Positions 16,770 through 32,506 of a stretch of 64,000 nt of DNA are shown here, in pieces. Below the pieces are notes generated by a model. That model did not search any database. It was not told the DNA's origin and worked only from the letters and a program-made list of their open reading frames with translations. This DNA is from Foetidibacter luteolus (lineage in GTDB: Bacteria; Bacteroidota; Bacteroidia; Chitinophagales; Chitinophagaceae). Position 1 is the stretch's first letter. Every line of letters begins with the position of its first letter. Location of the stretch: assembly GCF_009650435.1 (NCBI RefSeq), contig NZ_VVIP01000065.1, positions 62,001 through 126,000 on the forward strand, written 5' to 3'. The position numbers were made by a program, and so were the translations under genes.

Positions 16770-16851
16770 GAAACGGGACGATGCCCATTGATTTGAAGAT
16801 GAAGTGCTTGCGACGCAAGGGACGATGCCATGAAAGCCGAAGCTGGTATCG
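16770..16851 (-). repeat. Dispersed repeat family 1, inverted copy
   Basis: Reads GAAGTGCTTGCGACGCAAGG...GATGCCATGAAAGCC...AGCTGGTATC, the reverse complement of the family consensus. Confidence 0.75.
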
Positions 16852-17948: not shown

Positions 17949-20900
17949 ATGAAGAAAACAAAAGGCTTAATGCTTCTTCTGCTATTATGCATTGGAAGCA
18001 TATTTGCATTTGGGCAAGGCAAAAGAACTGTATTAGGAGCTGTAAGAGACAGCACTGGTAATGGCGTTCCGGGCGTAACCATTACCGTAAAAGGAACCAA
18101 GGTTTCAGGCACATCAGACGGGCAAGGCAATTTTAAGATTGTAGCCCCGCTTTCTAACCCGGTATTGGTTTTCTCCAGCATCGGTTTCCAGGCACAGGAA
18201 GTAGAAGTAAACTCAGATGATTTTCTGGCAGTAACGCTTGTTGGTTCTACAACAGAACTAAATGAAGTTGTGGTTACTGGTTTTGGCGCCAGAAAAAGTA
18301 CCAGGAAAATTACTTACGCGGTTACAGAAGTGAAAGGAGAAGACCTTTCAAGAACAAACACCCCAAACATAGTTAATGCATTGCAGGGCAAGGTTGCCGG
18401 TGTAATGATTAACCAGGGCGCTGGTGGTCCTTCTTCAAGTTCCAGGATAAGGATTAGAGGTAATACTTCCATTATTTCTAATAACACGCAGCCGCTTTTT
18501 GTAATAGATGGCGTTTTGATAAGGCCAGGCGTTTCCGGTGCAGATTCCTGGGGTGATGCGAGAGACTTTGGTAACGAGCTGAAAAATTTAAACCCCGATG
18601 ATTACGAAAGCTTGACCGTTTTAAAAGGCTCTGCAGCAACAGCACTTTATGGCTCTGATGGTCAATATGGCGTTGTATTAATTACTACCAAAAAGGGTAA
18701 AGTTCGTAAGGGTGTTGGTGTTACTTTTTCTCATTCACAAACTTTTGAAAAAGCTTACAGGCTTCCAGACTTTCAGAATGAATATGGCGGTGGCTATGAC
18801 CCATTTTTTGTAAAAGGCGCTGATGGCATGAATGAAGTGGAGCCTTCACTCGGACCCTATTACAGCTTTGGGCCAAAATTCGATGGAAGCACTGTTCGTG
18901 ACGCGGATGGCAGGTTAATACCCTGGAAAGCCAATAACCTGTTGGATCTTTTCCAGACCGGCAAGTTTTATAATACCAATGTAGCAGTAGAAGGCGGCAG
19001 TGAAAGGACTACTTTCCGCTTTGCCTATACCAACACAAAGAATAACAGCGTAATGCCGAATAACTCGTTTAAGAGAGACGTCTTCACGTTAAGGGCAACA
19101 CAAAAACTAAGTAGTTTTCTAAACCTTGATGCCTCTGCATCTTACGCTACTTCCTACTCGTTAAACCCAATATTGCAAGGCGGTAATTCAAATCCCCTGT
19201 TTAGATTGGCATATTCAAACTCCCGCCACTACGATATTGGATACAACAGCACAAATTACATTGATACAATAAATGGTGGCAGATGGGGCACAACGGTTGC
19301 CAACCCCAGCCCTTATTTAAGAGGCTCTATGACAGGTGTTTTTTGGAGCTATTATCAAAACAATGTGTCGCGCAGAGAAGATAATTTAAGGGCCAACCTT
19401 GACATTACAGCAACTATTACCCCATGGTTAAGTTTGTTGGTTAGAGGTAACGTAAACACCATTAACACTACTGATGAAACAAAAAACAGGGGTGATGGAA
19501 GAGCGTTTCGTGTTGGCGGCTATTACCGGTTAGCGCAAAGCAGCTCAAAAACAGGAAGGTTGCAAGCAGTATTATCTGCAAGTAAAGAAATTACAAATGA
19601 TATAGATGGCAGCCTTTCTATCGGAGGTGAGACCAACCGCAACCTGGGAGGATACTATTCCAACTCTAACACTAATGGCGGTTTTAAGATAGCAGATATC
19701 TATGCTATTTCCAACTCTGTTAATGCTGCTTCCGGCGATGCAGGCAGAAATGCTGTTAGCCGCCTGGACGCGGTTTACATGTATGGCGACGCCACTTGGA
19801 GAGACCTTGTTACTATGAGCTTTAGCCTTCGTAATGACTGGAACTCTAATCTTGTTTACCCTGATGGCCATGGAGATTTTAGCTATATCTATCCATCAGT
19901 TGGTTTGTCTTACATATTCAGTGAAAGCCTTAAGAAGTCTTCAGCTTTTGGTTTTCTTTCTTATGGTAAACTTCGCGGTAGCCTGGGATACACCGGAAGC
20001 GGCCCCGATATTTATAAAACGAGCGATGGCTTTGGTTATACACTAAATGGCAACTACACAAATCCTGATGGTTCGTTGGTTCCCCGGTATGGATTGAGCA
20101 GCCTTAACCTTGGTAACCAAAACTTAAAACCACAAAGAACAAGAGAGCTTGAATTCGGCGCTGAAATGAAATTCCTGAACAACAGGCTGGGCATTGATAT
20201 TGCCTGGTATAAGAAGAACACTTTCAACCAGGTAATTGGCCTTCCTGCTCCCTCAGAAAGCGGTTTAAGCAGTATCGTTTTGAATGCGGGCAATATCCAA
20301 AATCAAGGCATTGAAATCAGCTTAACCGGCAGCCCGGTGAGGTCAAAGAATTTCCAGTGGAACACCACTGTTAACTTTACCAGGAACAGGAATAAAATTA
20401 TTGATATTGGAAAGGAATATGGGGTAAATACTTACACACTTGATCTTGCATTTGGTGCAGATGTACAATCTCAAGCTATTGTAGGCAAAGATTATGGTAC
20501 AATTGTGAGTGGTTATGCTTATGCTCTAGTACAGGACAAAGGTTCTCCTAATTACGGCAAGAAACTTCTTAAACAAAATGGTGTATTCTGGAGGTCTCAG
20601 GATATTGGCCAGGGCCAGAGAGAAATCGGCAGCATGATGGAAAAATTCCTGATGACAAATATTCATGAATTTCGCTACAAAGACTTTAGCTTATTTGTAC
20701 AAGCAGACGCCAAAGTTGGCGGCATGATGGCTTCAGCCACACACCAATATGGTTCTCAGTATGGCAGCTTTAAAAGCACATTATTTGGCAGGGATGCAGC
20801 ACACGGCGGTGTTGAATGGGTAGATGATGAAGGAAGGACCCGTAACGATGGCATCATACCTGACGGTGTTTTCTCTGATGGTATTCAATTAAACGGCGTT

Positions 20901-21272
20901 GACGTAAGCGGCATGAGCTATGCCGAAGCCGTATCCAAAGGTTTAACAAAACCTATGTCCGCAGCAGCTTACTATGATGGTATTGCAAGCTGGGGTACAG
21001 GTATCCGGGAATACTCTGTTTTCGAAAACTCATGGGTATCATTGAGGGAAGTTTCTGTTGGCTATAATTTGCCCAAAAAGTTCACTTCAAAAATTAAGTT
21101 TTCGAGTTTAAGGGTTAGCCTGGTTGGCCGCAACCTTGTTTACCTGTACAACAATGCGAAAGACAACATCAACCCCGAAAGCATATTCAGCAGCAGGGCA
21201 GGCGCATTTGCGGAATACGGTGGTCTTCCGTTTATCAGAAGCTATGGCTTTACAGTAAATGCCGGATTCTAA
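17949..21272 (+). CDS. SusC/RagA-type TonB-linked outer-membrane transporter
   Basis: Outer-membrane TonB-dependent importer of 1,107 residues, full length for SusC. It has a signal peptide (to about residue 22), an N-terminal carboxypeptidase-regulatory-like domain (about 27-110), the ELNEVVVTGFGA segment that precedes the plug, a plug (LQGKVAGV...RIRGNTSI...PLFVIDGV) and a 22-strand barrel ending in an aromatic residue (TVNAGF). It lacks an STN domain, so it should not signal through an anti-sigma factor. It is paired with the SusD-like gene 25 bases downstream. The substrate is unknown; there is no glycan hydrolase in the locus. Confidence 0.96.
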   Translation: MKKTKGLMLLLLLCIGSIFAFGQGKRTVLGAVRDSTGNGVPGVTITVKGTKVSGTSDGQGNFKIVAPLSNPVLVFSSIGFQAQEVEVNSDDFLAVTLVGSTTELNEVVVTGFGARKSTRKITYAVTEVKGEDLSRTNTPNIVNALQGKVAGVMINQGAGGPSSSSRIRIRGNTSIISNNTQPLFVIDGVLIRPGVSGADSWGDARDFGNELKNLNPDDYESLTVLKGSAATALYGSDGQYGVVLITTKKGKVRKGVGVTFSHSQTFEKAYRLPDFQNEYGGGYDPFFVKGADGMNEVEPSLGPYYSFGPKFDGSTVRDADGRLIPWKANNLLDLFQTGKFYNTNVAVEGGSERTTFRFAYTNTKNNSVMPNNSFKRDVFTLRATQKLSSFLNLDASASYATSYSLNPILQGGNSNPLFRLAYSNSRHYDIGYNSTNYIDTINGGRWGTTVANPSPYLRGSMTGVFWSYYQNNVSRREDNLRANLDITATITPWLSLLVRGNVNTINTTDETKNRGDGRAFRVGGYYRLAQSSSKTGRLQAVLSASKEITNDIDGSLSIGGETNRNLGGYYSNSNTNGGFKIADIYAISNSVNAASGDAGRNAVSRLDAVYMYGDATWRDLVTMSFSLRNDWNSNLVYPDGHGDFSYIYPSVGLSYIFSESLKKSSAFGFLSYGKLRGSLGYTGSGPDIYKTSDGFGYTLNGNYTNPDGSLVPRYGLSSLNLGNQNLKPQRTRELEFGAEMKFLNNRLGIDIAWYKKNTFNQVIGLPAPSESGLSSIVLNAGNIQNQGIEISLTGSPVRSKNFQWNTTVNFTRNRNKIIDIGKEYGVNTYTLDLAFGADVQSQAIVGKDYGTIVSGYAYALVQDKGSPNYGKKLLKQNGVFWRSQDIGQGQREIGSMMEKFLMTNIHEFRYKDFSLFVQADAKVGGMMASATHQYGSQYGSFKSTLFGRDAAHGGVEWVDDEGRTRNDGIIPDGVFSDGIQLNGVDVSGMSYAEAVSKGLTKPMSAAAYYDGIASWGTGIREYSVFENSWVSLREVSVGYNLPKKFTSKIKFSSLRVSLVGRNLVYLYNNAKDNINPESIFSSRAGAFAEYGGLPFIRSYGFTVNAGF

Positions 21273-21297
21273 TTACTTACCTATTTAACTGATTTGC

Positions 21298-22959
21298 ATG
21301 AAAAAGAAAAAATATCTCATATATGGTGCAATGTTCCTGCTACTTGGGAACAGTTGTAAAAAAGCTGATTTTGTAGAGGACAATACTAATCCTAACATAT
21401 TGTACGGAATAGAGCCACAGGAACAGTTTTTAAATACGGCTATCCAGATACACGGCCAAGACTTCGAGGCTTTCTATGATTCCTACCGCAGAATAATGCC
21501 GTGGATGCAAATGAACACTGCTCAAAACGGAAATGCCAAAACCTTTCTAAATGATGTAGGTAACTTTAATTCCCGTTATGGTATCTTCTACCCTACCTTG
21601 GGAGCGCAAATAGCAGACTTAAATGCACTCATCGCTCTAAAGCCTGAATCTGAACGTCCTGCTTATGTTCACATGGCAGCAATTGCGGAAATAGTAAAAA
21701 GCTACTATGGGTTTTACGTTTCTGACATAAACGGTAGCCTGGCTTACAGCGAAGCTTTCCAGGGCCGCTACGGAGGAACACTCACTCCAAAATACGAATC
21801 GCAACAGGAGCTTTTCCAAATTTTTGAAACCAAGTTAAAAGAATCCATTGCAACACTAAAGGCCACTCAGCCGGTAACGCAGGTATCACTTGGTAATAAC
21901 GACCTCTGGTTTAAGGGTGAGGCTGTAAAATGGGTGCGGGTTGCCAATGCCCTTCGCTTAAGAATCGCCATGCGACTGTTAAAAAGGGATGAAGCAACAG
22001 CTAAAGCAATCTTCGCTGATGTTCTGGCTGATGGCGAACAGATGGCCAGCAATGCAGATGGTTGGGTGTTGTATGCTGATGAAACGTTTACGTCCGGCGG
22101 TAACTGGGACATAACTACGTTCAGGGCTCCCAAGCCGACAGTTGATTTTATGCTAAAAAATAGCGACCCAAGGGTTAGGCTCTATTACCAGCCTAATAAC
22201 TATTCCGAAGAAAACTTTGAAATAGCCAAAGACTCTGGCCTTTATCCGGCAAACGCTGTCTGGAATCCTAACCAATATGTCGGTGCTCCCATTAGCCCGG
22301 ATGATGCCACAGGAGCTTATCAATCCTGGTTTACTGTAAAAAGAGTTTCTGCCAGCCTTAGCCTTGATACGCTTTCTTTTTTAAATTACCGCATGTGGCA
22401 ACCGGCTAATAATGGCGGGGATGGTGTAGTTACACTTCCTTTGATTACCTATGCAGATTATTGCTTTATGAGAGCAGAAATTGCGGCCCGGGGCTTAGCC
22501 TCAGGCAATGCCGAAGAATGGTATAATAAGGGTATTGAAGCCTCCATCACTTTTTTCGATAATGCAGGCTCTATAGCAAAGTTGGCAAATTACCGGCAGT
22601 TAAGCGCCGACGAAATTGACAACTACAAAAATGCGGCCGACGTAAAATTTAATGCTGCCAAGGCTGTTGAACAAATAGCTATTCAACAGTACATTAATTT
22701 TTACAAGCAACCTAACGAAGCATGGGCTTTGTTTAAACGTACTGGCATACCCAACAAAAACACAGCTTTGGCCAATGTTGACCTGATTATAGATGCAAGC
22801 GTAAGGCAAATACCCCGCCGTGCAGCTCTTTCTATCCCTGCAGCTACGGATCTTAATGCCGCCAACAAACAGGCAGCTTTAGACGCTATGGCGCAGGATG
22901 CCGACTTTGGCTCTGGCCCAACAGACCTCTTCGGCCGTGTTTGGTGGGATAAAAAATAA
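21298..22959 (+). CDS. SusD/RagB-family outer-membrane lipoprotein (SusD-like_2 type)
   Basis: Surface lipoprotein that caps the SusC barrel and binds substrate. It has 553 residues and a lipobox LLLGNSC with lipidation Cys20. The C-terminal half has the tetratricopeptide-like helices (YADYCFMRAEIAARG; AIQQYINFYKQPNEAWALFKRTG) typical of the SusD-like_2 subgroup. It follows SusC directly and a strong terminator follows it, so SusCD can be transcribed alone. Confidence 0.94.
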   Translation: MKKKKYLIYGAMFLLLGNSCKKADFVEDNTNPNILYGIEPQEQFLNTAIQIHGQDFEAFYDSYRRIMPWMQMNTAQNGNAKTFLNDVGNFNSRYGIFYPTLGAQIADLNALIALKPESERPAYVHMAAIAEIVKSYYGFYVSDINGSLAYSEAFQGRYGGTLTPKYESQQELFQIFETKLKESIATLKATQPVTQVSLGNNDLWFKGEAVKWVRVANALRLRIAMRLLKRDEATAKAIFADVLADGEQMASNADGWVLYADETFTSGGNWDITTFRAPKPTVDFMLKNSDPRVRLYYQPNNYSEENFEIAKDSGLYPANAVWNPNQYVGAPISPDDATGAYQSWFTVKRVSASLSLDTLSFLNYRMWQPANNGGDGVVTLPLITYADYCFMRAEIAARGLASGNAEEWYNKGIEASITFFDNAGSIAKLANYRQLSADEIDNYKNAADVKFNAAKAVEQIAIQQYINFYKQPNEAWALFKRTGIPNKNTALANVDLIIDASVRQIPRRAALSIPAATDLNAANKQAALDAMAQDADFGSGPTDLFGRVWWDKK

Positions 22960-22978
22960 TCTCTTGTTTCTTCTTCAT

Positions 22979-23015
22979 AAACTCCAGGCTGCCTTTAGCC
23001 TGGAGTTTATTTTTT
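22979..23015 (+). terminator. Rho-independent terminator after SusD
   Basis: A 12-bp perfect stem AAACTCCAGGCT/AGCCTGGAGTTT with a 6-nt loop, followed by ATTTTTT, about 20 bases after the stop. It separates SusCD from the enzyme genes. Confidence 0.9.
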
Positions 23016-23023
23016 CATAACTT

Positions 23024-23644
23024 ATGCGATATTTGAAACCGAACATGTGCTGTAAAAAAAGTTATATTATCCTTTTTCTTTTAACGCTTATCCAAACGGT
23101 GTCCCCGGCACAGAACGATTCTGTTTTTAATACCAAAACCATATCCGCTGTTACTCTCATCAACACCAGCCCGCAAAAAAACATCCAACTTCAAAACGCA
23201 TTTTCTACCCCCTTAACATTATTCTTTTTTCTTTCGCCTGAGTGCCCTTTATGCAAGGATTACTCTGCAACTATGAACAGTCTGCAACAACAGTATGGCG
23301 ATAAAATGACAGTATATGGCATTGTTCCTGGCAAGGCTTATTCAGCCGCTGAGGTAAAAGCATTTGCAGAACAATACCATTTTAGCTTTCCCCTGCTTAT
23401 TGATAAGCAACAACAGCTATCAAAATATCTAAACGCTTCAGTTACACCTGAAGCCATCCTGCTCAACAATCACCAACAGCTCGTATATAAAGGCGCGATA
23501 GATAACCTGCTTGAAGGCCTTGGCAAACGCCGGGTTAAAGCAACAGCAAACTATCTGCAAAATGCTATTTCCCAAACACTCAGCCACCAACCGGTGGCTA
23601 TTAAAAGAACCAAGGCCACCGGCTGCAAAATAAACAACTACTAA
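23024..23644 (+). CDS. Exported redoxin-domain protein
   Basis: A 206-residue thioredoxin-fold protein with a signal peptide (hydrophobic run near 14-29) and the active-site-like motif CPLC in FFFLSPECPLCKDYS. The tail has a TKATGCKI motif which, as I recall, marks redoxins that accompany PHM-like monooxygenases. It ends one base before the next gene, so the two are translationally coupled. It probably acts in the periplasm, perhaps supplying electrons or maturing the cytochrome/copper site of its neighbour; that is inference. An ATG at residue 8 (23045) is an alternative start that gives a tidier signal peptide. Confidence 0.8.
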   Translation: MRYLKPNMCCKKSYIILFLLTLIQTVSPAQNDSVFNTKTISAVTLINTSPQKNIQLQNAFSTPLTLFFFLSPECPLCKDYSATMNSLQQQYGDKMTVYGIVPGKAYSAAEVKAFAEQYHFSFPLLIDKQQQLSKYLNASVTPEAILLNNHQQLVYKGAIDNLLEGLGKRRVKATANYLQNAISQTLSHQPVAIKRTKATGCKINNY

Positions 23645-23645
23645 A

Positions 23646-24959
23646 ATGAAGAAACTACTTGTAATAAGTTTTTTGCTGGTTTGTGCGACAAGTATTTTGG
23701 CGCAGGAGGTTACTTATTACAAAGATGTACAGCCCATTATTGCAGGGAAATGTGCCCCCTGCCACCGCCCGGGCGAAGCAGGCCCTTTTTCGCTTCTTAC
23801 GTATGACGATGTTGCCAGGCGGGCTTCCTTTATCAAGGATGTTGTTCAAAGCCGCTACATGCCACCTTGGCGTGCCGATAACAAGTATGTTCATTTTGCC
23901 AATGACCGCTCTTTATCGCAAAAAGAAATTGATGTAATTGTGAAATGGGTGAATAATAAAGCACCAGAAGGCAAGCAAGTTGCTAAGCCTGCAGTATCAA
24001 AACCTATGCTGGAAGGAACCCAGTACAGCCGGCAGCCCGATATGGTTCTTAAAATGACTGACAGTTTTTTGGTAAAAGGTGATGGTGGTGAAAGGTTCAT
24101 CGTATTCAAAATTCCTTTTGAATTGGCGGATACTGCCAATGTAGAAGCCATAGAATTTTTAAGCAACAACCGCAAACTGGTACATCATGTTAACTACGCG
24201 GTGCATGCTGTGCCCGATACGGCTGTTGACCTGTACAAAACCGACGCCTTCATTAATCTCACAGATGATGACCGGAAAAAATTTGACCAATACCAACCTT
24301 ACCGGAAAACAATCACGTACTATGGCGGATGGATACCAGGTACCACTTACGAATCATATCCTAAGGACTTTGGCTGGGTTATGCCCAAGCGTGGTGTTAT
24401 TTTAATGACTGTTCACTTTGCGCCAGGCACCGTAGACCAAAACAGTCTTAACGGCATAAACCTTTTCTTCAAAAAAACACCCATTGCCCGCAAGGTTAAG
24501 GTTATCAGCTTTGGCTCTGGCGGCATTGGCGAAAAAGATATCACGCCAACTTTTTTTATTAAGGCCAATGAAAAGAAAAGTTTCTCGCTGGATGTTATGA
24601 ACCCCAGTGAAGATTTTTCCATCATGTACGTGTGGCCGCACATGCATTATATAGGCAAAGAATATAAGGCGTATATCATCAAGCCCGGCGGCGATACGGT
24701 TAGGTTGGTGCATATACCAGACTGGGATTTTCGCTGGCAGGAAATCTACCGTTTTCCAAAACTGGTAAGGGCGCCCAAAGGCTCGGTTATTCATATTGAA
24801 GGTTTGTACGACAATACTGCGTCCAACCCATTCAATCCGCATAACCCGCCGCAAACAGTATGGTCGTTTGGCGATATGCAGTCAACCAACGAAATGCTAA
24901 CGTTAATGATGGTGTTTTTGCCATACAAACAGGGGGATGAGAAAGTAAGCCTGGAATAG
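23646..24959 (+). CDS. Cytochrome c-like / PHM-type copper monooxygenase fusion
   Basis: Exported protein of 437 residues. After a signal peptide (to about 19) comes a small haem-binding region with CAPCH (Cys36, Cys39, His40) and the candidate axial ligand in YMPPW (Met72). The rest follows the type II copper ascorbate-dependent monooxygenase plan: His180-His181 and His257 for the first copper, His332-x-His334 and Met417 (in TNEML) for the second. All ligands that I can match to peptidylglycine monooxygenase are present. The reaction should be C-H hydroxylation with O2; the substrate is unknown. It is coupled to the redoxin upstream. Confidence 0.82.
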   Translation: MKKLLVISFLLVCATSILAQEVTYYKDVQPIIAGKCAPCHRPGEAGPFSLLTYDDVARRASFIKDVVQSRYMPPWRADNKYVHFANDRSLSQKEIDVIVKWVNNKAPEGKQVAKPAVSKPMLEGTQYSRQPDMVLKMTDSFLVKGDGGERFIVFKIPFELADTANVEAIEFLSNNRKLVHHVNYAVHAVPDTAVDLYKTDAFINLTDDDRKKFDQYQPYRKTITYYGGWIPGTTYESYPKDFGWVMPKRGVILMTVHFAPGTVDQNSLNGINLFFKKTPIARKVKVISFGSGGIGEKDITPTFFIKANEKKSFSLDVMNPSEDFSIMYVWPHMHYIGKEYKAYIIKPGGDTVRLVHIPDWDFRWQEIYRFPKLVRAPKGSVIHIEGLYDNTASNPFNPHNPPQTVWSFGDMQSTNEMLTLMMVFLPYKQGDEKVSLE

Positions 24960-24965
24960 TTTTTT

Positions 24966-25214
24966 TGATACGGGCTTTATCTTTCATGGCATCGTTCCTT
25001 GCGTCGCAAGCACTTCATCGTTTGGTTAGTATGGCATCTGCAGTTCGCTGCACAAGCCTTATCCTGTTGTTCTAAGCTCTTGCTATAAAAAAGCATACAA
25101 GAACAACGGGCTGCCAAAAAAGGATGCGGAACGATGCCCATTGATATACAGATGAATCCCGAAGTTTCGGGACGACGCAAGGAACGATGCTACGAAGGCC
25201 ATAGCTGGCATCAG
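24966..25214. repeat. Repeat family 1, two copies in inverted orientation
   Basis: Left copy 24966-25020 (GATACGGGC...CATGGCATCGTTCCTTGCGTCGCAAGCACTTCATC) and right copy 25129-25214, its inverse, ending AGCTGGCATCAG. The two bracket about 110 bases without a gene, like the ends of a small non-autonomous element. The right copy contains an extra hairpin CCCGAAGTTTCGGG. Confidence 0.8.
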
Positions 25215-25260
25215 AAAGTCAACCAAAGCCCTTCAACAAACTTAAACCCCAATAACACGA

Positions 25261-28200
25261 ATGATTAAAACAGCCTTTAGCTTATTAGCCTGCTTTATTG
25301 CTGTGCTTGTAACAGCTCAAAAAACGGCGCCGCTTTTTACTTTAATGGAAGAAAAGCAAACCGGAGTTGTGTTTTTAAATGAAATTAAAGAAGACGACTC
25401 GCTGCACGTAATGCGTTATGAGTACCTCTACAACGGCGCGGGTGTGGGCATTGCAGATTTTAATAACGACGGGTGGAATGATATCTTTTTTTCGGGCACT
25501 ACTACGCCTAATAAGCTTTTCTTAAATAAACAGAATTTTCAGTTTACAGATGTTACAAAACAAGCCGAGGTTGCAGGCAATGGCACCTGGGCAACCGGCG
25601 TAAGCATTGCCGATGTTAACGGAGATGGTTTATGGGACATTTATGTTTGCCACTCCGGCTATTACCATAACCCGCAACAATTAAGCAACGAGTTATATAT
25701 TAACCAGGGCGTACAAAACAATGTGCCTGTATTTAAGGAAATGGCTGCCGCTTATGGATTAGATGCTCCAGGTACACAATCTACGCAGGCAGCTTTTTTT
25801 GATTACGATAATGATGGCGACCTGGATATGTTTTTGCTAAACCATTCTAATCACTCTATTGACCCTTTTCTTAACACGCGGAAAATAAGGGCAACTCCCA
25901 ATTTCAATTTCGGAAACAGGCTCTTTCGTAATGACAGGGACGCTAATGGAAACATGCATTTTACCGATGTTACTTTGGCGGCGGGCATTATCAACAATGC
26001 CATCAACTTTGGCCTTAGCGTTACTATAAGCGATGTTAACCGGGATGGCTGGCCGGATATTTACACCACCAGCGATTATACGGAAAGAGATTGCTTTTAC
26101 ATTAATAACCGCAACGGAACTTTTACTGAATCATTAAGCAAATCTTTCACCCATATTTCAAAGTATTCCATGGGCGCCGATATAGCGGACTATAACAACG
26201 ACGGCAGGCCGGATGTATTTACACTGGATATGCTGCCGGAGGATAACCACCGCCAGAAGTTATTGAAGGGCCCTGATGAATACGATAAATATCACCTGCT
26301 GCTGGATAGTGGTTATTACCATCAGCAAATGCGTAACATGCTGCAATTGAACGAAGGGCAGGATATGATGGGCAATACCCGGTTTAGTGAGATTGGCCAA
26401 TTGGCTGGCGTATCTAACACAGACTGGAGCTGGGCGGGTTTGTTTGCTGATTTTGACAACGATGGCTGGAAAGACCTGTTTATAAGCAACGGTTACCTGC
26501 GGGATTTTACAGATATGGATTTTTTAAAGTACACCGTAGCCGATGCAAAGATTGCCGCTGCGAAAGAAGGCCATCAAAACTTCCAGACTTTTGACCTGGT
26601 AAGAAAGATGCCCTCGAACAAATTGAACAATTATATTTTTCAGAATAACCACCAACTTGGTTTTAGCAATATGACCAGGGAATGGGGCTTTGAAAAACCC
26701 AGTGTTTCGAATGCCGCGGCCTATGCAGACCTGGACAATGATGGTGACCTTGACCTTGTAATTTGTAATAACAATGAACCAGCTTTACTCTATCGCAATA
26801 ACACGAATACTTCGAGGCCTGTACACTTTGTTAAACTGCGCCTTAGTGGCGAAGGAGCTAACGCAAAAGCCTTTGGCGCAACAGTAACCATAACAACATC
26901 AGATGGCAAAACACAATACCAGGAATTGTACCCGGTACGTGGTTATCAGTCAACCGTTGCACCGGAACTGTTATTTGGTTTAAGCAACCAGCAAACCCTG
27001 CAGCAAATAAAGATTGTATGGTCCGGCAAAAAGGAAACGCTGCTAACCAACATTAAAGTTGATACGATTCTTAACATACAGCAAACAACGGCTTCAATAA
27101 CAACTTCAACAGCCCGGGCCAGCCAGCCGTTTTTTCAGGATGTAACGTCAGCATCCGGCCTGCATTTCAGGCATACTGAAAACGATTTTGTTGATTTTAA
27201 AGATGAGGTATTGCTGCCATACCAGCTATCCAAACAAGGCCCTGCAATGGCCAAGGCAGACGTTAACGGGGATGGCCTGGAAGACCTGTTTTTTGGCGGC
27301 GCCATCAATCAGCCGGGTATGCTTTTCCTGCAAAACGAGGGTGGCGATTTTCGTATAGCTGCATCTAACCCGTGGCTAATTGATTCGGCGAACGAGGATG
27401 TAAATGCTTTATTCTTCGATGCGGATAAAGATGGTGACCAGGACCTTTATGTGGTGAGTGGCGGAAACGAATATGGCGATGGCTCGCCGGAATATGCCGA
27501 CCGGCTTTATCTTAACGATGGCAAAGGGAATTTTCAAAAGGCAAATACCGCATTGCCCGATATGTTAAGCAGCAAGAAAGCTGTAGCAGCCGGTGATTTT
27601 GACAATGACGGCGACCTTGACTTATTTGTAGGGGGCCAAAGTATACCAGGCTCGTTTCCACTGGCGGCCAAAAGCTATCTGCTGCGCAACGACAGTAAAG
27701 ACGGCAACGTAACTTTTACTGATGTAACCACTGATATAACCAATAACCTGCGTGAAGCAGGCATGGTTAATATAGCTCAGTGGGTTGACCTTGATAATGA
27801 CAACTATCCAGAACTGCTGATCGGCGGCGACTGGATGAACATCTTGCTTTTTAAGAATACTAAAGGCAGGTTAGAAGATATTTCTAAAAAGGCCGGCATT
27901 GAACATTTGAGCGGCATGTGGTCTGCCATTAAAGCAACGGATATAGACGGAGACGGCGATACGGATTTTATTTTGGGCAACTGTGGCTACAACAACCAGT
28001 TTAAAGCAAGTAAAGAGCAGCCTGTTACTTTATATGCTTATGACTTTGATGATAATGGTACAATAGACCCCATCATGTGTTACTACATACAAGGCAAGAG
28101 TTATCCAATGGCGTCAAGGGACGAATTGCTGGACCAGGTAGTTCCTTTAAAAAAGAAGTTTGTGAAGTATAAAGATTATGCTGATGCAACGATAGAAAAG

Positions 28201-28623
28201 ATTTTTCCTTCAACTAAAATAAGCGATGCCCGTCAATACAAATGCAACGAACTGGCTTCAGGGATTTTGTACAATAACGGCAACCTGCAGTTTAGTTTTA
28301 CAGCTTTACCTATTGAAGCCCAGTTTTCCCGGGTGTATGGTGCTGTTGCTGATGATTTTGACAAAGACGGCATAAAAGACATTTTAATCAGCGGTAACTT
28401 TTTTCCTTACCGTGTGCAACTCGGCCGCTGTGATGCAGGCCTTGGCATGTTGCTCAAGGGTAATAGAGACAAAACTTTTACCGCAGTTGACCCAACCCTG
28501 AGCGGCTGTTATGCAGATGGCGACATAAGAGCTATGGATACATTGAAAAATAAATCCGGAGATACATTGATTATTATAGGTAAGAATGATGCTGCCGTTC
28601 AGGTTTTAAAACTAACTAAATGA
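25261..28623 (+). CDS. Large exported FG-GAP/VCBS repeat protein with ASPIC/UnbV domain (CRTAC1 type)
   Basis: A 1,120-residue secreted protein with a signal peptide (to about 19). Two blocks of FG-GAP/VCBS repeats, rich in calcium-type DxNxDGxxD loops (first near residue 65; then many such as DNDGDLD and DVNGDG), flank an ASPIC/UnbV domain whose GYQSTVAPELLFGL motif lies near 560. The expected fold is two beta-propellers. No enzyme residues are visible; surface binding or assembly is the likely job. Its stop overlaps the start of the haloperoxidase gene (ATGA), so the two are coupled. Confidence 0.88.
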   Translation: MIKTAFSLLACFIAVLVTAQKTAPLFTLMEEKQTGVVFLNEIKEDDSLHVMRYEYLYNGAGVGIADFNNDGWNDIFFSGTTTPNKLFLNKQNFQFTDVTKQAEVAGNGTWATGVSIADVNGDGLWDIYVCHSGYYHNPQQLSNELYINQGVQNNVPVFKEMAAAYGLDAPGTQSTQAAFFDYDNDGDLDMFLLNHSNHSIDPFLNTRKIRATPNFNFGNRLFRNDRDANGNMHFTDVTLAAGIINNAINFGLSVTISDVNRDGWPDIYTTSDYTERDCFYINNRNGTFTESLSKSFTHISKYSMGADIADYNNDGRPDVFTLDMLPEDNHRQKLLKGPDEYDKYHLLLDSGYYHQQMRNMLQLNEGQDMMGNTRFSEIGQLAGVSNTDWSWAGLFADFDNDGWKDLFISNGYLRDFTDMDFLKYTVADAKIAAAKEGHQNFQTFDLVRKMPSNKLNNYIFQNNHQLGFSNMTREWGFEKPSVSNAAAYADLDNDGDLDLVICNNNEPALLYRNNTNTSRPVHFVKLRLSGEGANAKAFGATVTITTSDGKTQYQELYPVRGYQSTVAPELLFGLSNQQTLQQIKIVWSGKKETLLTNIKVDTILNIQQTTASITTSTARASQPFFQDVTSASGLHFRHTENDFVDFKDEVLLPYQLSKQGPAMAKADVNGDGLEDLFFGGAINQPGMLFLQNEGGDFRIAASNPWLIDSANEDVNALFFDADKDGDQDLYVVSGGNEYGDGSPEYADRLYLNDGKGNFQKANTALPDMLSSKKAVAAGDFDNDGDLDLFVGGQSIPGSFPLAAKSYLLRNDSKDGNVTFTDVTTDITNNLREAGMVNIAQWVDLDNDNYPELLIGGDWMNILLFKNTKGRLEDISKKAGIEHLSGMWSAIKATDIDGDGDTDFILGNCGYNNQFKASKEQPVTLYAYDFDDNGTIDPIMCYYIQGKSYPMASRDELLDQVVPLKKKFVKYKDYADATIEKIFPSTKISDARQYKCNELASGILYNNGNLQFSFTALPIEAQFSRVYGAVADDFDKDGIKDILISGNFFPYRVQLGRCDAGLGMLLKGNRDKTFTAVDPTLSGCYADGDIRAMDTLKNKSGDTLIIIGKNDAAVQVLKLTK

Positions 28624-29945
28624 GGAAAAGATTTCTATTAATCGCGGTGGTCTTGTGTAACATCATTTTGTGCCAGGGACAAAACAATAATTTATCTGAT
28701 GAAGATGCCACAGCCCTGCACCGCTCCCAAAAAGCATTAACCGACGTGATCATCCACGATATTTTTTCCCCGCCCGTAGCTTCAAGAATTTATGTCTACG
28801 CGAATATTGCAGCTTATGAAGTGCTGGTACAGCAGTCTTCTTCCTATAAATCACTGCACGGCTTACTGAAAGATATGCCACAAACCCCGGCGCCGGTTAA
28901 GCCAGTATCTTCTTCTCTCGCCGCTGTATATGCTTTTATGATAACCGGGAAGCGGCTGGTATTTTCAGAGCCACTGCTGGAAGATTCGCTGCAAAACATA
29001 TTAGCGTATTTTAAAACGAAAGGGCTGAGTGAAACTGTGTACAGTGCCTCCCTTGCCTATGGACAACAGGTAGCAGATACCATTATGAGCTGGGTAATGA
29101 AAGACCAGTACAGGGAAACACGAAAACTGCGCCGCTACCGTTACAGTAAGCAGGAAGGCAAATGGATACCCACTCCCCCAGGCTATATTGACGCCGTAGA
29201 GCCTTACTGGAATAAAATAAGAACGCTGGTAATGGACTCCTGCAACCAGTTTCGCCCGGTGGCTGCATTAACATTCAGCAAGGAAAAAGGATCTGATTTT
29301 TACAACCAGGCGTACGAAGTATACGAAGCTGGTAATAAACTAACGGAAGAACAGAAGGCCGTGGCAAATTTCTGGGATTGTAACCCTTTCTTTCTGAATA
29401 CGGAAGGCCACCTGAATTTTGCTACCAAGAAAATCTCTCCCGGCGGGCATTGGATGTCCATCGCAGGCATCGTATCCCAAAACGTACATGCCGGTATTAT
29501 GAAGGCGTCTGCGGCCTACACGTTTACTGCAATCGCTTTGTTCGATGGCTTTATCAGTTGCTGGGATGAAAAATACCGCAGCAATGTGATAAGGCCGGAG
29601 ACTTACATCAACGCGTACATAGATGAATCCTGGCGGCCCATTTTACAAACTCCCCCTTTCCCGGAATATACCAGCGGGCATAGTGTGGTATCTACGGCGG
29701 CTTCAAAAGCACTTATTTTTCTGTACGGCGATAACATCGCCTTTGATGATTATACAGAAGTGGAGTTTGGCCTTCCGTCTAAACATTTCAATTCATTTTC
29801 ACAGGCTTGTAATGAAGCTGCTATTTCCAGGTTATACGGAGGTATTCATTACCGTGCCGCTATAGAAAATGGACAAAAACAAGGCGCACAAATCGGCAAT
29901 TATATTGTTCAACAAGTTTTACATAAAGCAATCATTCAGCATTAA
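28620..29945 (+). CDS. Vanadium-dependent haloperoxidase-like PAP2-superfamily enzyme
   Basis: Exported protein of 441 residues (signal peptide to about 20). The vanadate-binding set of the family is complete: Lys318-x6-Arg325-Pro326, then Ser352-Gly353-His354 in PEYTSGHSV, then Arg404 and His410 in SRLYGGIHYR. His410 would bind vanadium and His354 act as the acid/base. The family uses peroxide to oxidise halides, but related PAP2 proteins are phosphatases, so the halide reaction is not proven. The start overlaps the preceding gene by four bases and it is followed after 9 bases by a serine hydrolase gene. Confidence 0.88.
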   Translation: MRKRFLLIAVVLCNIILCQGQNNNLSDEDATALHRSQKALTDVIIHDIFSPPVASRIYVYANIAAYEVLVQQSSSYKSLHGLLKDMPQTPAPVKPVSSSLAAVYAFMITGKRLVFSEPLLEDSLQNILAYFKTKGLSETVYSASLAYGQQVADTIMSWVMKDQYRETRKLRRYRYSKQEGKWIPTPPGYIDAVEPYWNKIRTLVMDSCNQFRPVAALTFSKEKGSDFYNQAYEVYEAGNKLTEEQKAVANFWDCNPFFLNTEGHLNFATKKISPGGHWMSIAGIVSQNVHAGIMKASAAYTFTAIALFDGFISCWDEKYRSNVIRPETYINAYIDESWRPILQTPPFPEYTSGHSVVSTAASKALIFLYGDNIAFDDYTEVEFGLPSKHFNSFSQACNEAAISRLYGGIHYRAAIENGQKQGAQIGNYIVQQVLHKAIIQH

Positions 29946-29954
29946 AGCAAACCT

Positions 29955-32450
29955 ATGCGCAAAAACAAATTGTTACTGGCATCATTAGTTTTTACCGGGC
30001 TCCACTCCTATGCCCAATCTACCCACCATTTTACAGAAGGGTTGCTCATCAGTTCCGGCAGCCGCTATGGCCGTGAAGCTATTTATACAGATGTGCTGGC
30101 GTGGAAACTGTACAACAACAATATTAGCAAACCAACCGAAGGCGCTATTCTGGATATTACCGATAAAGGCGACACGCTTTCCTGGCAGCCTATTAAGGCA
30201 GACAGTGCTAACCGTTTTCTTACCCGGCGCTGGCAGGCACTTGCCAGGGGCAATACTTTCGGCAATCCTAACCGGGTTGACAGGGGCACTGGCTATATCT
30301 ATTTTACCTACAACTCATCCAAAGAACAGCCTGCCATACTGAATGTAAAAGGCAACAGCGGTATTTACTTCAATGGGGTTCCGCACATGGGCGATCCTTA
30401 CAGTTCCGGCTACATGTATGTTCCGGTTAAACTAAAAAAGGGGCTGAATGAATTATATGTGCGTGGTACAAACATTACAGCCGACCTGATTTTTAATGAT
30501 AAGCCTGTGCTGTTAAGCACAGACGACCTCACCTTACCAACCATTGTAACCGGCCAGCCGAACAGCAACATGCAAGGGGCTATCGTAGTAATCAACACTT
30601 CCGCAAAAGAATTGAAGAACGTGCAGTTTAAAACCAGCCTTGGTGGTAAGGAATTAACAACAGCAGTGCCGGCGATACCTGCCATGTCAACCAGGAAAGT
30701 AAGGTTTGATTTTGATGGCAGCAGCGTTACTGCAAAAGGCTGGAATAATTGTTTGGTTACTTTGCTTAACCAGCAAAAGGTTGCCGATACAGCTACCATA
30801 AAAATTGAATCTACAGAACCATCAGATAAATACGCTGTTACTTTTACCAGCAATATTGACGGCAGCCTCCAGTATTATGCCGTAACACCACAACTGCCTG
30901 CCGGTAACAGTTCAGGCAATGCCCTGTTTCTTTCTGTGCATGGCGCTGGTGTTGAAGCATTAGGCCAGGCAAGGGCTTACCAGTCTAAAGATTGGGGCAC
31001 ACTGGTAGCCGCCACCAATCGCCGCCCCCGTGGTTTTAATTGGGAGGATTGGGGAAGGCTTGATGCATTGGAAGTACTTTCACTTGCCAAAGCAAAATTT
31101 CAGCCGCATCCGCAGCACATCTATCTTACCGGTCACTCTATGGGCGGTCACGGCACCTGGTTTCTCGGCGCAACTTATCCTGATAAATGGGCAGCCATCG
31201 CACCTTGTGCAGGCTATCCTACTTTAAAAGGTTATGGCTCTGCCGATGGTGTGATACCCGACAGCAGTAACTCAGTTACAGAACAAATGCTGCTCCGCTC
31301 CAGCAACCAGAGCGATGTGCCCAGGCTTGCCACCAATTACAAACAACTGGGCGTATATGTATTACACGGCGATGCGGACAGGGTGGTGCCGGTAACCTAT
31401 GCCCGCCAGATGAGAAAAGCACTGGCTGATTTTCATGGTGATTACAGCTACTACGAATACCCCGGCGGCGAACATTGGTTTGGCAATGAAAGCGTTGACT
31501 GGAAGTATATTTTCGATTACTTTAAATGGCATAAGCTTGCTGTTGATACCGCTGTGAACACCATTGATTTTATGACAGCGAGCCCCGGCATCTCCGCTTC
31601 TTACCGCTGGGCAAGCATATTGCAGCAACAACACCCGCTTGAGTATAGCCGCATCCAGCTAAAAAGAAACAACAGCGCCAAATCCATAACAGGCTCGGCT
31701 GATAATGTAAAGCTGCTTCAGTTTAACCTGAAGGAATTTGGCAGCAATGCTGCTGTTAAAATTACACTTGACAGCCAGGCATTGCAATACAATACCAACA
31801 GCGCAAATGACAGTATTATCCTCAAGAAAGAGAACGACAAATGGAGCATTGCTGATGCCCCCACACCGCAACAGAAAAACCCAACGCGTTATGGCACTTT
31901 TAAAGATGCGTTTAACTACAATATGATTTTTGTGTACGGCACTGCCGGTACCAAAGAAGAAAACGAATGGAGCTACAACAAAGCTGTTTACGATGCTGAA
32001 ACCTGGTATTACCGCGGTAACGGCGCCGTTGACATTGTTTCTGACAAGGTATTCGTTGCTGGACAGTACAAAGACCGTGGTGTTATCCTGTTCGGCAATG
32101 CGGAAACCAATAGTGCATGGCAACAACTGCTGGCAAATTGCCCCATACAGGTAAAAAGGAACAGCATTAATGCTGGCGAAAAAACATTTACAGGTGATGA
32201 CCTGGGTGCATATTTTGTTTGGCCGCTCACCAACTCCGGTTTTACCAGCGTAGGGGTTGTTGCCGGCACAGGGTTGAAAGGTATGAATGCTGCCAACGCC
32301 AACCAGTATTTTGCAGGCGCAAGCGGTTTTCCCGATTTCATGATTTACAGCCTGGATATGCTGAAAAAGGGCTCCTCAGAAATTAAGCTGGCAGGCTTTT
32401 TTGACAGCGACTGGAAGTTAAGCACCACAGATATGGCTGAAGGAAAGTAA
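29955..32450 (+). CDS. Exported alpha/beta-hydrolase, prolyl-oligopeptidase-like
   Basis: An 831-residue secreted protein (signal peptide to about 20). The N-terminal third is beta-rich and unassigned. An alpha/beta-hydrolase domain follows, with nucleophile Ser395 in GHSMGGHGTW, Asp475 in GDADRVVPV and His507 in GGEHWFG, forming a complete triad. The last 300 residues form another unassigned beta region. Peptidase versus esterase activity cannot be told from the sequence. It is last in the run with the CRTAC1-type and haloperoxidase genes. Confidence 0.85.
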   Translation: MRKNKLLLASLVFTGLHSYAQSTHHFTEGLLISSGSRYGREAIYTDVLAWKLYNNNISKPTEGAILDITDKGDTLSWQPIKADSANRFLTRRWQALARGNTFGNPNRVDRGTGYIYFTYNSSKEQPAILNVKGNSGIYFNGVPHMGDPYSSGYMYVPVKLKKGLNELYVRGTNITADLIFNDKPVLLSTDDLTLPTIVTGQPNSNMQGAIVVINTSAKELKNVQFKTSLGGKELTTAVPAIPAMSTRKVRFDFDGSSVTAKGWNNCLVTLLNQQKVADTATIKIESTEPSDKYAVTFTSNIDGSLQYYAVTPQLPAGNSSGNALFLSVHGAGVEALGQARAYQSKDWGTLVAATNRRPRGFNWEDWGRLDALEVLSLAKAKFQPHPQHIYLTGHSMGGHGTWFLGATYPDKWAAIAPCAGYPTLKGYGSADGVIPDSSNSVTEQMLLRSSNQSDVPRLATNYKQLGVYVLHGDADRVVPVTYARQMRKALADFHGDYSYYEYPGGEHWFGNESVDWKYIFDYFKWHKLAVDTAVNTIDFMTASPGISASYRWASILQQQHPLEYSRIQLKRNNSAKSITGSADNVKLLQFNLKEFGSNAAVKITLDSQALQYNTNSANDSIILKKENDKWSIADAPTPQQKNPTRYGTFKDAFNYNMIFVYGTAGTKEENEWSYNKAVYDAETWYYRGNGAVDIVSDKVFVAGQYKDRGVILFGNAETNSAWQQLLANCPIQVKRNSINAGEKTFTGDDLGAYFVWPLTNSGFTSVGVVAGTGLKGMNAANANQYFAGASGFPDFMIYSLDMLKKGSSEIKLAGFFDSDWKLSTTDMAEGK

Positions 32451-32470: not shown

Positions 32471-32506
32471 AACGGATGTCATTTTAAAAATGGCATCCGT
32501 TTTTTA
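32471..32506 (+). terminator. Rho-independent terminator closing the haloperoxidase operon
   Basis: Stem AACGGATGTCATTTT/AAAATGGCATCCGTT (one wobble) followed by TTTTTATT, 20 bases after the stop codon. Confidence 0.9.

Follow-up and report, generated by a model that had tools for sequence, protein, structure and literature searches.

The window analysed here, a stretch of 64,000 nucleotides of Foetidibacter luteolus DNA, harbors a locus that we read, with a probability of about one half, as a SusCD uptake system that includes an oxidative step of its own and most likely serves a glycan or glycoconjugate containing fucose. The analysis shows the gene content, the folds, the intact residues of the active sites, the lasting linkage of the genes and a redoxin-heme-copper fusion; we infer the periplasmic location, the electron flow, the glycan substrate and the order of the steps. 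The substrate may contain a peptide or glycopeptide component. In the proposed sequence of events, the SusCD pair would import partly trimmed substrate. In the periplasm, a copper monooxygenase of the PHM/DBH fold would hydroxylate a C-H bond of the substrate using O2, and its c-type heme domain together with the neighbouring redoxin would either donate electrons or maintain the copper site in a reduced, loaded state. In roughly half of the related loci an FG-GAP/ASPIC protein would bind the substrate or scaffold a vanadium haloperoxidase, which would carry out a second oxidation and consume H2O2. An esterase would complete the breakdown, in many homologous loci together with glycosidases (GH29, GH3, GH18, GH20, GH35, GH125), and a regulator of the sugar type (ROK or LacI) would control the breakdown genes. 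The parts belong to known families; it is their conserved combination that appears to be undescribed in the literature searched. No described pathway with this gene set was found there, in a search that covered mainly freely accessible papers, in line with what the original prediction had stated.

The locus comprises seven open reading frames, all on the plus strand, and their presence and coordinates were borne out by an ORF check. Family models (Pfam/NCBIfam) agree with the earlier assignments of SusC, SusD-like_2, redoxin, FG-GAP/ASPIC, PAP2/haloperoxidase and esterase. The features are:

17949..21272, plus strand: SusC/RagA-family TonB-dependent outer-membrane transporter (TIGR04056, E 3.9e-161)
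21298..22959, plus strand: SusD-like lipoprotein lid, SusD-like_2 (PF12771, E 3.8e-50; lipobox by inspection)
22977..23010, plus strand: terminator-like hairpin with a T-rich tail in the susD/redoxin gap (15-pair stem)
23024..23644, plus strand: exported redoxin (AhpC/TSA-Redoxin by Pfam) with CPLC and a C-terminal GCxI motif
23646..24959, plus strand: predicted cytochrome c-fused copper type II (PHM/DBH-fold) monooxygenase (AlphaFold model, Z 19.9 to PHM, ligand residues)
24962..25217, no strand: interspersed inverted-repeat element in the monooxygenase/FG-GAP gap (45-nt inverted arms; 46 genome matches)
25261..28623, plus strand: FG-GAP/UnbV-ASPIC protein (PF13517, E 3.5e-72; PF07593, E 1e-17)
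28620..29945, plus strand: predicted vanadium-dependent haloperoxidase of the Zobellia iodoperoxidase type (4CIT, E 2.8e-139)
29955..32450, plus strand: exported serine hydrolase with a CE1/PHB-depolymerase-like esterase core, an accessory (Pfam/NCBIfam; triad residues 13/13)
32471..32501, plus strand: terminator-like hairpin closing the locus (14-pair stem, T tail)

The central enzyme is the monooxygenase, a protein of 437 amino acids that has no Pfam or NCBIfam match at E<=0.001. The Cu2_monoox_C model (PF03712) reaches 15.5 bits on the window protein, under the cut-off of 23, and is weakly detected in 19/19 close relatives. Sequence searches with the single protein and with a 19-member profile found no solved PHM relative, and fold comparison alone succeeded. 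The AlphaFold model (pLDDT 90.5) matches PHM with Z 19.9 (rmsd 3.2 A over 258 residues, 12% identity) and human dopamine beta-hydroxylase with Z 19.5, and the modelled fold is clearly that of these enzymes. PNGase F is the next fold; with Z 8.0 against 19.9 for PHM, and with the copper ligands intact, it was ruled out as the identity of the protein. The six copper ligands named in the original prediction (His180, His181, His257, His332, His334 and Met417) are unchanged in all 55 aligned relatives, as they are in 19/19 of a smaller alignment, and judged by this invariance and by the modelled fold the ligand assignment is very likely right. The CXXCH heme motif (Cys36, Cys39, His40) and Met72, a candidate axial heme ligand, are likewise invariant in 19/19 and in 55/55. 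Two monooxygenase copies per locus are seen in L140, L146, L173, L174, L175, L177, L178, L182 and L191, mostly Chitinophaga records, many with a LacI regulator and adjoining mutS.

The redoxin of the window matches the AhpC-TSA/Redoxin models and carries a CPLC motif. In genome G308 (L209:1256-3055, minus strand) a single polypeptide of 599 residues unites a redoxin domain with a CXXCH heme region and a PHM-like domain. Because of this fusion, and of the spacing of 1 bp between the redoxin and monooxygenase genes elsewhere, the redoxin likely serves the oxygenase directly. Its likely role would be that of an electron donor, or of a copper or thiol chaperone, for the oxygenase.

The association of these genes extends well beyond the window. 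We counted neighbours within 9 kb of the monooxygenase in the 78 best loci of a public-genome scan; these loci are phylogenetically non-independent and come from named organisms of four or more families (Chitinophagaceae, Sphingobacteriaceae, Spirosomataceae, Fulvivirgaceae). The susC gene is found in 76/78, susD in 73/78, the redoxin in 58/78, the FG-GAP gene in 41/78 (immediately 3' of the monooxygenase in 39/78) and the haloperoxidase in 38/78. The core order susC-susD-redoxin-monooxygenase recurs in all four named families. Across 196 genomes from the same family, most close relatives have the monooxygenase together with susCD and the redoxin, and G055, G064, G178, G193, G008 and G035 have the FG-GAP and haloperoxidase genes too, in unchanged order. 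The seven top-scoring haloperoxidase matches in these 196 genomes are exactly those close to a monooxygenase, while the next match scores lower and is unlinked. The outer flanks of homologous loci are housekeeping genes (rpoB, dapB, lepB, parB, mutS, bshC), which gives the linked set sharp boundaries. The neighbourhood search that the original prediction had called for finds the association kept across many genera, and the refuting outcome it had named, a lack of conserved co-occurrence in other genomes, did not arise; the co-occurrence is real and old, and far beyond chance.

The neighbours of the homologous loci point to sugars. A ROK gene lies near the monooxygenase in 42 of the 78 best loci, against roughly 0.02 expected, and takes a position directly 5' of susC or directly 3' of the monooxygenase; LacI or ECF/FecR regulators are found in homologous loci of other lineages. 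GH29 is present within 9 kb in 22/78, where genome-wide counts give about 0.026 expected per 20 kb. The background amounts to about 80 GH29 and 52 ROK matches in eleven genomes, and the chance of meeting either in a random 20-kb stretch is a few percent or less. GH3 occurs within the same gene run in Pedobacter loci, and GH125, GH20, GH18, GH35 and CBM9 in some others. A block of 302, 241, 244 and 397 amino acids upstream of the Pedobacter loci was considered as sugar-catabolic genes and rejected; it encodes the housekeeping proteins ParB, DUF5683, DapB and signal peptidase.

The serine hydrolase is a looser part of the locus. Its Ser-Asp-His triad, which had been described as complete, is intact, with S395, D473, D475 and H507 invariant in 13/13 relatives. 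Relatives of the esterase core include LC-Est1C and a thermostable esterase. The AlphaFold model is poor in the middle domain (pLDDT mostly <50 at 393-531), and its fold matches, at low confidence, hint at N-terminal GH2-like beta domains and a CE1-like core. The hydrolase is near the monooxygenase in 12 of the 78 best loci and is a loosely attached accessory; its relatives away from the monooxygenase stand beside GH29 in 8 of the 18 loci examined.

Several observations speak against a glycan or glycoconjugate as the substrate. In the window, neither a glycosidase nor a regulator or ROK gene lies next to the locus. Glycosidases are not obligatory in the homologues either, since 12 of the 78 best loci contain only susCD, the redoxin and the monooxygenase among the scored families. 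In the literature searched, we found no PHM-family enzyme that acts on sugars. The closest solved relative of the window SusC, whose gene is adjacent to that of SusD by family-model matches, is BT_2264 (5FQ6, E 6e-92). According to PMC7782687, which cites the original work, the BT_2264 crystal structure contained a bound oligopeptide. A peptide or glycopeptide substrate would be compatible with this, and the ligand of the window SusC may be a glycopeptide.

One alternative is that the locus takes up glycopeptides, such as those derived from glycoproteins of plants or fungi, with glycosidases trimming the glycan and the PHM-like enzyme oxidising the peptide or the sugar-peptide junction. PHM itself acts on peptides, hydroxylating the C-terminal glycine next to the nitrogen. 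The mix of GH18, GH20, GH29, GH125, GH35 and GH3 among the neighbours could, as a hypothesis by analogy, recall N-glycan processing, and PMC9522356 describes gut Bacteroides loci that combine GH29, GH3 and SusCD and target plant N-glycans. However, no single homologous locus contains the full glycosidase set, neither GH92 nor PNGase adjoins the locus among the annotated neighbours, and glycosidase families alone cannot fix a substrate. We regard glycopeptide uptake as unlikely. A more specific form of it, in which the monooxygenase would oxidatively free the glycan at the sugar-peptide or amide-linked junction of imported glycopeptides by hydroxylating beside the nitrogen as PHM does, is a long shot by analogy. 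If it were true, such a junction-oxidising enzyme would be an O2-dependent alternative to release by PNGase or endoglycosidase, powered by redoxin and heme, in aerobic Bacteroidota.

The original prediction, drawn from the window copy, had a different substrate in mind: a polymer other than a sugar, or a small aromatic compound, that is attacked oxidatively and whose fragments are imported by SusCD. Copper monooxygenase and haloperoxidase are both real, and dopamine beta-hydroxylase, a close match to the modelled fold, uses an aromatic substrate; the 12 loci in which susCD and the redoxin are the only scored partners would also be compatible with this reading. The reading is weakened by the ROK and LacI regulators and the glycosidases (GH29, GH3, GH18, GH20, GH35, GH125) in many homologous loci. 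All proteins had been described as exported, and by inspection the leaders do fit Sec signal peptides and SusD carries a lipobox. No T9SS C-terminal sorting domain was matched by a model in the seven window proteins, and by a simple pattern the enzymes generally have no lipobox. The most likely place for the enzymes is thus the periplasm, where they would act on substrate already imported, and extracellular attack on a polymer is unlikely. Two distant monooxygenase relatives (L207:9150-11135 and L208:1141-2952, both on the minus strand) bear a T9SS secretion tail, and secretion is possible in other lineages. What stands of the earlier idea is an oxidative system tied to SusCD uptake, through the copper enzyme and the conserved linkage; a non-sugar substrate and extracellular attack are not supported, and we consider this alternative improbable.

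The second oxidative enzyme is the haloperoxidase, and here we consider the more modest alternative that the window protein is a PAP2-type phosphatase, or performs other vanadate/phosphate chemistry, so that the locus would be left with a single oxidative enzyme. Pfam indeed puts the protein in PAP2. The vanadate residue set that had been named as complete (K318, R325, S352, G353, H354, R404, H410) is invariant in 29/29; the set is common to haloperoxidases and PAP2 phosphatases and alone does not separate them. A distinction is provided by two other features. Residues 31-433 align with the Zobellia vanadium haloperoxidase 4CIT (E 2.8e-139), and position 414, where the PAP2 motif SRx5Hx3D usually ends in Asp, is Ala in 28/29 linked proteins, as in 4CIT by alignment. 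Because of the near full-length homology to 4CIT and the Ala at position 414, we favour a haloperoxidase, predicted from its sequence to be a vanadium-dependent enzyme of the Zobellia iodoperoxidase type, and give the phosphatase little credence. For halide specificity, the closest precedent is an iodoperoxidase (Fournier et al. 2014, as cited in PMC11871015).

The protein encoded just upstream has 7 FG-GAP_3 stretches and, at 537-604, a single UnbV_ASPIC domain, so that its FG-GAP/ASPIC assignment is confirmed by Pfam. It is a probable ligand-binding or scaffold partner of the haloperoxidase. As a candidate PAL-like lyase partner for a peptide-amidating role it was rejected, since it shows FG-GAP and UnbV_ASPIC domains only. 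The source genome (G000) holds four more haloperoxidase paralogues, on C8, C25, C38 and C5 (L081-L084), three of them near an FG-GAP/ASPIC gene. L083, L091, L092 and L100 have two divergent haloperoxidase genes with a further pair of genes, of about 370 and 320 residues, between them.

It could finally be argued that SusCD, redoxin-monooxygenase, FG-GAP-haloperoxidase and hydrolase are independent transcription units that each act alone and have no more in common than an insertion hotspot. The terminator-like hairpin that follows susD, a gap of 301 bp between the monooxygenase and FG-GAP genes in this genome, rearranged gene orders and the hydrolase, which is mostly found elsewhere, would agree with this. 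The hairpin could partly uncouple expression, which also counts against our own reading of the locus. Hairpins with a stem of at least 9 pairs are present in most of 51 homologous susD-redoxin gaps, 29/51 with a T-rich tail, and their sequences differ. The hairpin is a probable attenuator or end of an abundant susCD mRNA, and its kept position would fit a conserved drop in expression downstream of susCD better than separate control. A sequence-variable hairpin after susD (gaps of L121-L198) is possibly a general attenuator of SusCD operons. The 301-bp gap was considered as an internal promoter region and rejected, since a dispersed inverted-repeat element fills it and the gap is short in relatives. 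This element has 46 matches across the genome, with another at ~16774-16850 of the window, and is not part of the conserved locus. The spacing in homologues is operon-like, with medians of 1 bp (redoxin-monooxygenase), 14 bp (monooxygenase-FG-GAP) and -4 bp (FG-GAP-haloperoxidase). The rearrangements in fact speak against independence. In Dyadobacter and Telluribacter the same genes stand in another order (monooxygenase-FG-GAP-haloperoxidase-susC-susD in Dyadobacter), and in L075-L077 they are divergent; the gene set survives rearrangement, and this reunion of the same genes argues for selection keeping the set together. In a tree of 57 haloperoxidases, with the unlinked set taken from one family, a branch supported at 100/99 sets all 37 linked proteins apart from the unlinked ones. 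With a single clade of linked haloperoxidases, linkage kept across families and spacing below 20 bp, we think it most doubtful that the units are independent.

If an uptake locus with an oxidative step is indeed what we see, aerobic soil and freshwater Bacteroidota would apply O2 chemistry to nutrient acquisition. SusCD systems have mostly been studied in oxygen-poor guts, where their partners are hydrolases. The locus would also place heme-fused PHM-like oxygenases and Bacteroidota iodoperoxidase-like proteins, two groups whose functions in bacteria are not well understood, in a likely physiological context. Cultured hosts (Pedobacter, Chitinophaga, Dyadobacter) permit direct testing of the locus.

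The locus shares features with several known systems. The SusCD pair BT_2263/2264 of Bacteroides thetaiotaomicron includes the closest solved relative of the window SusC, and we know of no comparable oxidative enzymes in its neighbourhood. With the polysaccharide utilization loci of Bacteroidota, including those for plant N-glycans (PMC9522356), the locus has the SusCD pair and exported enzymes in common, and its homologues add the sugar-type regulator and glycosidases (GH29, GH3). It differs from them in the conserved copper monooxygenase, the redoxin and often the haloperoxidase, and the window copy in having no glycosidase or adjacent regulator. The vanadium iodoperoxidase of Zobellia galactanivorans (4CIT/4USZ) resembles the window haloperoxidase through near full-length homology and matching vanadate-site motifs, but the window type occurs in mostly non-marine hosts and is tightly coupled to the FG-GAP/ASPIC protein and the monooxygenase. 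The PNGase F family has a distantly related double jelly-roll fold; the window monooxygenase differs from it in its intact copper ligands and heme domain, and is far nearer to PHM. PHM and dopamine beta-hydroxylase (PF01082/PF03712) share with the window enzyme the modelled fold and the complete two-copper ligand set. In contrast to these, the window monooxygenase, at an identity of about 12%, is bacterial and SusCD-linked, carries an N-terminal c-type heme domain and has a redoxin as partner or fusion.
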